From Peptococcaceae bacterium CEB3 (GTDB lineage: Bacteria; Bacillota; Desulfitobacteriia; Desulfitobacteriales; Desulfitobacteriaceae), in contig LDXJ01000061.1 of the NCBI GenBank assembly GCA_001029295.1, positions 62,001 to 126,000 of the forward strand: a stretch of 64,000 nt of DNA, written 5' to 3'. Both the position numbers and the translations under genes were made by a program. Below are positions 10,974 through 16,958 of the stretch, one piece after another. Every line of letters starts with the position of its first letter. The stretch's first letter is position 1. Below the pieces are notes generated by a model. That model was not told where the DNA came from and searched no databases. It saw nothing but the letters and a program-made list of their open reading frames with translations.

Positions 10974-11136
10974 GTGGTCTTCCTCCCCCGCTGCATGTGC
11001 TTCTCGATCGTGTTGACAAGGTTATCCGCCAACTTTCCGTTTGTCCGCCTTCCACCAGTTTTCTTATTCGCGGCAAAACTTATACTTCCTGCCGCCACGG
11101 TTTGCACAACGCGGAAAGTTCTGCCGGGCAACAGAA

Positions 11137-11161
11137 AAGCCAGGGACTGAATCCCTGGCTT
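11137..11161 (-). terminator. Terminator of the zinc-ribbon gene
   Basis: AAGCCAGGGA and TCCCTGGCTT form a perfect 10-bp stem with a 5-base loop. On the minus strand it is followed by TTCTGTTG. It lies 122 bases past the stop, in the 309-base gap 10974-11282, in which nothing else was seen. Confidence 0.7.
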
Positions 11162-11282: not shown

Positions 11283-11585
11283 TTAGTAGCGGCGCATCGC
11301 CTGATAGCAATCGCGGCAATAAACCGGCTTTTCGCCGGAAGGCTGGAACGGAACTTCGGTCTCGGCCCCGCAATTAGCGCACACGGCCGGATACATCTGG
11401 CGCTGCGGCCTGGAATAACCGCCGGAACTCCTCCCCGCCTGGGACTGCTTACGCGCCTGGCGGCAGGATGGGCAACGTCCGGGCTCATTCTGGAATCCCT
11501 TCTCGGCGTAAAACTCTTGTTCCCGAGCCGAAAATACGAATTCCTGACCACAGTCACGACATACCAGCACTTTGTCTTCAAACAT
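11283..11585 (-). CDS. Zinc-ribbon protein (zf-trcl type)
   Basis: 100 residues. N-terminal ribbon CRDCGQEFVFSAREQEFYAEKG followed by CPSCR, a glycine/serine/arginine linker, then a second ribbon CANCGAETEVPF and CRDC. These four CxxC pairs would bind two zinc ions. The family is common in Firmicutes and Chloroflexi and has no proven function; nucleic-acid binding is plausible. ATG follows AAGGAGG by about 10 bases, but that ribosome binding site is part of a long inverted repeat (see 11598-11660), so translation is probably regulated. Confidence 0.88.
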   Translation of the reverse strand: MFEDKVLVCRDCGQEFVFSAREQEFYAEKGFQNEPGRCPSCRQARKQSQAGRSSGGYSRPQRQMYPAVCANCGAETEVPFQPSGEKPVYCRDCYQAMRRY

Positions 11586-11597
11586 GGTAATCTTCCT

Positions 11598-11660
11598 CCT
11601 TATTAGGGTGTTCCTTGTCCCTTGGCTACTTCAATTTTCCTCCCAAGAACCCTAATAAGG
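11598..11660 (-). promoter_or_regulatory. Inverted repeat sequestering the ribosome binding site of the zinc-ribbon gene
   Basis: On the mRNA strand CCTTATTAGGGT (11660-11649) pairs perfectly with ACCCTAATAAGG (11609-11598). The second arm runs directly into AGG, so the Shine-Dalgarno AAGGAGG is half inside the stem. The stem can extend inwards through TTCTTG with CAAGGAA (one bulge). The start codon is 13 bases beyond. This is the layout of a translation-controlling hairpin. Confidence 0.75.
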
Positions 11661-11711
11661 CTGTCGGATTCCAATTTTCAATAGGCCCAAGACTTCAACA
11701 AGCACATATAG

Positions 11712-11740
11712 AGTATAGCAGAACATGCAGGCTTTGGCAA
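11712..11740 (-). promoter_or_regulatory. Promoter of the zinc-ribbon gene
   Basis: Minus strand TTGCCA (11740-11735), 17-base spacer, TATACT (11717-11712). It would give a leader of about 120 bases that contains the 11598-11660 hairpin. Confidence 0.65.
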
Positions 11741-16755: not shown

Positions 16756-16847
16756 TCACTGGGGAATTCTTCCTTCGGATAAACCGACCCGGTATTGGCT
16801 TCCGGCCACTCCTATCGGTTAAACTATTGAAAAAATTCCCGGAACAT

Positions 16848-16936
16848 CGCTTCCCTACGCTGGTACTAACCAGATCAGGTTCAAAGGGATAAGAGAACTC
16901 TCTTTCTCAGCCCCTTACGGGGCACCCCCAGCAAAG
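16848..16936 (-). promoter_or_regulatory. TPP riboswitch (THI element)
   Basis: Read on the minus strand it has all conserved blocks in order: GGGGGTGCC, GGCTGAGA, CCCTTTGAACCTGATC and TAGTACCAGCGTAGGGAAG. This is the thiamine pyrophosphate aptamer. It lies between the promoter at 16959-16987 and thiS, so excess TPP should shut off the whole thiSGH(FE)C operon. Confidence 0.97.
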
Positions 16937-16958
16937 TTGCAATTGTATGATTGGCTTT

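Follow-up and report, generated by a model that had tools for sequence, protein, structure and literature searches.

A conserved leader RNA with two predicted alternative folds upstream of zf_Tbcl zinc-protein genes

The zf_Tbcl locus

The window, which is the whole stretch of 64,000 nucleotides of Peptococcaceae bacterium CEB3 DNA analysed here, includes a gene of the zf_Tbcl family that specifies a protein of 100 amino acids (11283..11585, with its ATG at 11585). The protein consists of two treble-clef zinc domains, PF13451 (92.3 bits) and PF23477 (72.7 bits), with a Gly/Arg-rich linker between them. Promoter, leader, stem and gene all lie on the minus strand, an orientation that the initial annotation of this DNA did not give, and every feature below is on that strand. 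Upstream of the gene is a sigma-70-type promoter (11712..11740) with a -35 element TTGCCA (11740-11735), a 17-nt spacer, and an extended -10 element in which TG precedes TATACT (11717-11712). A promoter scan recovered this site as previously described; 0.6 such sites are expected by chance in that region, yet the -10 element is found again in relatives. The ~120 nt between promoter and gene agree with the leader length estimated earlier. The leader RNA itself runs from approximately the predicted +1 to the Shine-Dalgarno (SD) sequence (11594..11706), and the SD is AAGGAGG (11595..11601). On the 3′ side of the gene is a terminator-like hairpin with a U-rich tail (11130..11159; z = -5.1 for 46 nt) that was absent from the list of the initial feature scan, and the zf_Tbcl transcript is apparently a single-gene message.

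The thiamine-type genes of the window finish just ahead of the promoter and leader (thiC-like, 13076-11787), and a TPP riboswitch (RF00059, 84.3 bits) is found upstream of them at 16835-16939 on the minus strand.

A conserved stem predicted to sequester the Shine-Dalgarno sequence

The initial annotation described a 12-bp perfect stem that buries the ribosome binding site, and this stem, here called delta, is real. Its 5′ arm CCTTATTAGGGT (11649..11660) forms 12 of 12 pairs with the 3′ arm ACCCTAATAAGG (11598..11609), which contains the AAGG of the SD. Folding of the 83-nt stem region gives z = -3.4, with 1 of 200 shuffles equally good, and the 63-nt stem alone gives z = -3.2 (0/200 shuffles). 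The exact pair of arms occurs once in the 5.3-Mb genome and the reversed control gives zero occurrences; delta is beyond chance expectation. The 146-nt leader with the start is not unusually stable as a whole (z = -0.7, 54/200 shuffles), and whole-leader stability was dropped as evidence; a fold of the plus strand was uninformative, since zf_Tbcl is encoded on the other strand. Two details of the earlier description needed revision. An extension of the stem is predicted, but as UCUUGG/CCAAGG rather than as TTCTTG/CAAGGAA, and it is not conserved. A second GGGAGG does lie in the loop (11644-11639), but among the class A leaders of alignment A7 (described below) just 4 of 30 have it, and it is no general part of the element.

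The zf_Tbcl protein is encoded in 57 of 61 relatives, frequently as several copies, and the window's leader was met repeatedly upstream of their zf_Tbcl genes. A covariance model was built from 14 such leaders, termed class A, with the stem as the sole structure given. Searching 150 genomes with this model located the ~113-nt leader once each in 29 genomes, all in the family of the window species (probably Desulfitobacteriaceae); 45 of the genomes searched belong to that family, and 16 of these gave no match. In all 29 loci checked, the match directly precedes the start codon of a zf_Tbcl gene.

Alignment A7 holds 30 class A leaders (26 distinct sequences), including the divergent L008, and was made with a model containing delta, which biases it towards that stem. 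Across the 26 distinct sequences, 94.9% of the delta cells are paired, 4 of the 12 pairs are altered on both sides (12 cells), and the covariation score of 0.123, against 0.030 for shuffled alignments, is reached by 0 of 500 shuffles. Compensation can also be read without an alignment: the window's CCTTATTAGGGT/ACCCTAATAAGG and the CCTTATTTGGTG/CACCAAATAAGG of L080 are each perfect and three pairs differ on both sides, within the segment AGGGT/ACCCT of the window and TGGTG/CACCA of L080. An initial unbiased MAFFT/RNAalifold consensus contained just 7 delta pairs, with none compensatory, and was set aside because MAFFT had misplaced gaps. The earlier proposal was to fall if the paired arms were not conserved in relatives, and covariation in orthologous leaders was among its suggested checks; the arms are conserved, delta covaries, and the idea survived. 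With its SD in a conserved, covarying stem, the class A leader is, in predicted structure, an SD-sequestering translational cis-regulator. The reading of SD sequestration is extended by a competing fold, which would make the element bistable rather than a plain block.

A predicted competing long hairpin

The most conserved part of the leader is the 5′ half and not delta. Its first bases, from the predicted +1, are TGTGCTTGTT. Near-invariant bases form long runs outside the helices and, by comparison of the leaders, the conserved 5′ end is complementary to the delta loop. Three helices are predicted from this complementarity. Alpha pairs CTTGT (11698..11702) with the near-invariant ACAAG (11614..11618) just 5′ of the SD arm. 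Beta, TTGG(g)CCTA with TAGG(at)CCAA, is formed in the window by CTTGGGCCTA (11682..11691) and TAGCCAAG (11621..11628); it replaced a first candidate, TTGGAATCC/GGATCCAA, because it fits more rows of the alignment. Gamma, AAATT(gga)ATCC with GGAT(gat)AATTT, joins AATTGGAATCCGA (11664..11676; pairing parts AATT and TCC) to GGGAGGAAAATT (11633..11644; pairing parts GGA and AATT), within which the second GGGAGG lies. Together, alpha, beta and gamma would build one long, imperfect hairpin, whose apical loop contains the anti-SD arm.

Unprompted, ViennaRNA returned the long hairpin as the minimum free energy fold in most of the 30 members; the SD is then mostly unpaired, and the SD stem lies within a few kcal/mol of this fold. 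The window species is an exception: at 37 °C its SD stem has an advantage that ranges from 2.8 kcal/mol for 113 nt to 6.7 kcal/mol for 131 nt. The divergent members L008, L101 and L102 retain the long hairpin with different letters. In the alignment 88.5% of its cells are paired, 6 of 22 pairs are altered on both sides (matched by 0/500 shuffles), and its covariation score is reached by 4/500 shuffles. The hairpin is not stabler than shuffled sequence (mean z -0.91, 26 sequences), so that stability alone was rejected as proof, and comparative support for it is moderate. The linker between the 3′ foot of the hairpin and the SD arm is 2-3 nt, which is too short for both complete helices; on geometric grounds, therefore, the two folds should be mutually exclusive.

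Second and third leader classes

Paralogous zf_Tbcl genes are preceded by a different leader, class B, with the layout GCTCGTTAG..TGTGGATTTAC..ACCTTCTCGATTGCC..GGGAAG..CTTCCC..CGGGTAAT..GGAGGT. It was found in 69 of the 150 searched genomes, with up to 5 per genome, and extends to other families of the phylum. All 50 matches checked, among about 131 matches listed, precede zf_Tbcl, a count that includes one split gene (L137) and one truncated gene (L147). In L137 (G016:C1:2353130-2354288) an insertion element splits the zf_Tbcl gene after eight codons, and the class B leader remains in front. Taking both classes together, 79 of 79 examined matches lie before zf_Tbcl.

The class B SD stem with its anti-SD arm differs from class A in sequence and likewise covaries (36 cells, 0/500 shuffles), so that here too the SD is placed by comparative analysis in a conserved, covarying stem. 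The 5′ pairing of class B has some covariation (11 cells, 2/500 shuffles), and changes on both sides of its pairs are not in excess (165/500 shuffles). The inner helices of the predicted OFF fold, AUUGCC/GGGUAAU and GGGAAG/CUUCCC, are 90% paired with covariation not above shuffles, and, apart from delta, the OFF fold of class B thus rests on conservation. Leader class tracks the protein tree: it changes 5 times, where 24.8 changes are expected from shuffled assignments (0/200), on a tree with few columns and many open forks. The class A and class B leaders need not be homologous.

A third leader type was seen in Syntrophomonadaceae and relatives, in the last 75 nt before the start (L167, L177, L179, L186, L190, L191, L202 and L221). 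It has the layout CCTTGTTCTT..CTCCTTTTTGG..AAGTCCAAGAG..CCGAAAAGGGG and again has a long SD stem.

The initial annotation had noted no known RNA family with such a layout, and Rfam 15 scans bear this out: the window gave nothing at the gathering score (best hit 15.1 bits, snoR145, gathering 57), and the loci of 20 relatives matched no family. Literature searches of the open PMC set met no description of a leader RNA for zf_Tbcl genes, though an earlier mention may exist outside that set. The zf_Tbcl leader is apparently a new RNA family of a regulator type already known, unusual in its restriction to one gene and in reaching its structure in two or more ways. Two or more classes of structured leader that are apparently uncatalogued are thereby added, one of them present in 69 of 150 searched genomes, and an anonymous but widespread family of zinc proteins gains a testable regulatory circuit.

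A model for translational switching

On balance, these comparisons favour reading the leader as a bistable switch that would act in cis on the translation of zf_Tbcl and no other gene, and that probably sets the amount of this little-studied protein that is made. The long imperfect hairpin would form first during transcription, leaving the SD free while its apical loop contains the anti-SD arm (the ON state). After synthesis of the final 12 nt, that arm could leave the hairpin and pair with them to give the OFF state, and each fold would exclude the other. The choice between folds might be made by the zf_Tbcl protein itself, as feedback. Since the OFF fold is favoured by ~3-7 kcal/mol in the window species, a strong trigger would be needed there.

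Product feedback is the likeliest trigger, though we hold it tentatively and regard RNA binding by the protein as putative. The position of all 79 checked matches before a single protein family favours it over a metabolite; further points for it are that leader class follows protein subfamily and that a Gly/Arg-rich linker connects the zinc domains of zf_Tbcl. Such linkers are frequent in RNA-binding proteins. A fold search with the predicted zf_Tbcl structure (mean pLDDT 83.7, pTM 0.41) returned no match at E <= 0.001, and a sequence search of the PDB returned short zinc-finger stretches and nothing more. The autogenous leaders of ribosomal and other RNA-binding proteins are structured, serve one protein family, vary in structure by lineage and act on the SD, all of which they have in common with the zf_Tbcl leader. 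The element is likewise confined to genes for its proposed effector; it differs in that binding of the zf_Tbcl protein to its own leader is putative.

Alternative explanations

The main rival to product feedback is control by a ligand, in which the conserved 5′ half (TTGTTAAGACTTGGGCCTAA...AAATTGGAATCC) would be a pocket for a small molecule or metal that steadies one fold, with zinc as an obvious candidate. Near-invariant runs outside the helices are consistent with such a riboswitch, as are helices that interlock and an expression platform at the SD, which are typical traits of translational riboswitches. Class A leaders share with riboswitches of the preQ1-II and SAM-II type a 5′ strand with its pairing partner inside the SD-stem loop and conserved unpaired stretches; they differ in a linker too short for both helices. 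Metabolite and ion riboswitches generally, if not obligatorily, serve several gene families, whereas the 79 examined matches all precede zf_Tbcl rather than several unrelated genes of one pathway. This restriction and the lack of any Rfam match make a ligand unlikely, if still worth serious consideration.

A structured 5′ end that does not switch, and that mainly protects the mRNA or holds translation at a constant low rate, would fit with pairing that starts at about +1 and with a competing hairpin that is not unusually stable. It would not account for two leader classes that each conserve mutually exclusive partners and each show covariation of the anti-SD pairing, and we consider it rather unlikely.

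An RNA thermometer, in which heat melts the stem or temperature shifts the balance of folds, is improbable. The SD control is bistable and a paralogue is clustered with the genome's sole cold-shock-domain gene, but the computed ensemble of the window species keeps delta formed up to 60-65 °C (AAGG unpaired 0.05-0.09). With AAGG ~95% paired at 60 °C, there is no opening of the SD stem in the physiological range of that ensemble, and the simple heat melting suggested in the initial annotation is not supported. Cooling is computed to favour the OFF fold in the window species (a shift from -6.7 kcal/mol at 37 °C to -11.6 kcal/mol at 10 °C), and the temperature trend is inconsistent among relatives. 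A close comparison is the Escherichia coli cspA thermosensor (PMC9947658). Its whole 5′ UTR, from +1 onwards, alternates between one fold with the start region exposed and another with it hidden, as proposed for the zf_Tbcl leader, and its mRNA is similarly small and single-gene. The zf_Tbcl leader is without sequence relation to cspA, and its computed temperature trend in the window species is the opposite.

Translational attenuation, by which a ribosome on the mini-ORF TTG AAG TAG (11626..11634) downstream of the loop GGGAGG would open the stem, was rejected as highly improbable: GGGAGG-AAAA-TTG AAG TAG is well spaced, but 4 of 30 class A leaders carry the mini-ORF and the rest have no SD or start there.

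Genomic context and the raiA RNA

The window genome has three zf_Tbcl copies, and the class A leader precedes the window's copy alone. Another copy (L003, G000:C63:129383-131726) lies in the cluster comFC - zf_Tbcl - cold-shock gene - hpf, in which hpf specifies a long hibernation-promoting factor and the cold-shock gene is the only one with a cold-shock domain in the genome. In other Clostridia the raiA RNA (RF03072, ModT) takes the position directly upstream of zf_Tbcl that the leader has in the window species. Of 20 loci scanned, 12 have a raiA RNA whose end is ~30-90 nt upstream of the start of zf_Tbcl (L195, L197, L199, L203, L205, L215, L216, L220 and L228-L231; zf_Tbcl at 1501, or at 275 in L199), and L234 has one further raiA RNA directly before zf_Tbcl (1501-2002). 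The order in L233 is comFC, raiA RNA, cold-shock gene, hpf. Among 100 relatives searched, the raiA RNA was found in two, neither of them in the order of the window species.

The available passages of PMC11706538 and PMC11477304 place the raiA RNA between comFC and raiA, and the latter describes it as trans-acting. In contrast to the window's leader, it is ~209 nt long, and there is no match between that leader and RF03072. The passages of PMC11706538, PMC11477304, PMC11751092, PMC11109978 and PMC2864571 searched for 'zinc' contain no mention of a zinc protein.

By genome neighbourhood, zf_Tbcl proteins are linked with ribosome hibernation and with the raiA RNA, which is abundant. From the comFC-zf-csp-hpf cluster and the position of the raiA RNA immediately ahead of zf_Tbcl in many Clostridia comes a broader and doubtful suggestion: zf_Tbcl proteins may be RNA-binding partners of structured RNAs in a ribosome-hibernation and cold-response network. 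The leaders would then be separately evolved decoy targets by which the protein sets its own level, comprising class A, class B, the third SD-stem class of Syntrophomonadaceae and perhaps a tRNA-like element of gut Clostridia. If this were true, the zf_Tbcl family could supply a protein partner for the raiA RNA.

The tRNA-like sequence (GCCC..AGCTTAA..AGAGC..CGGTT.AA.TCCG..GGGC) is located just before zf_Tbcl, at ~1400-1470, in L196, L207, L226, L227 and L232. The copy in L226 is without an Rfam tRNA match, and that in L207, where ARAGORN calls no tRNA, scores 37.6 bits to RF00005.
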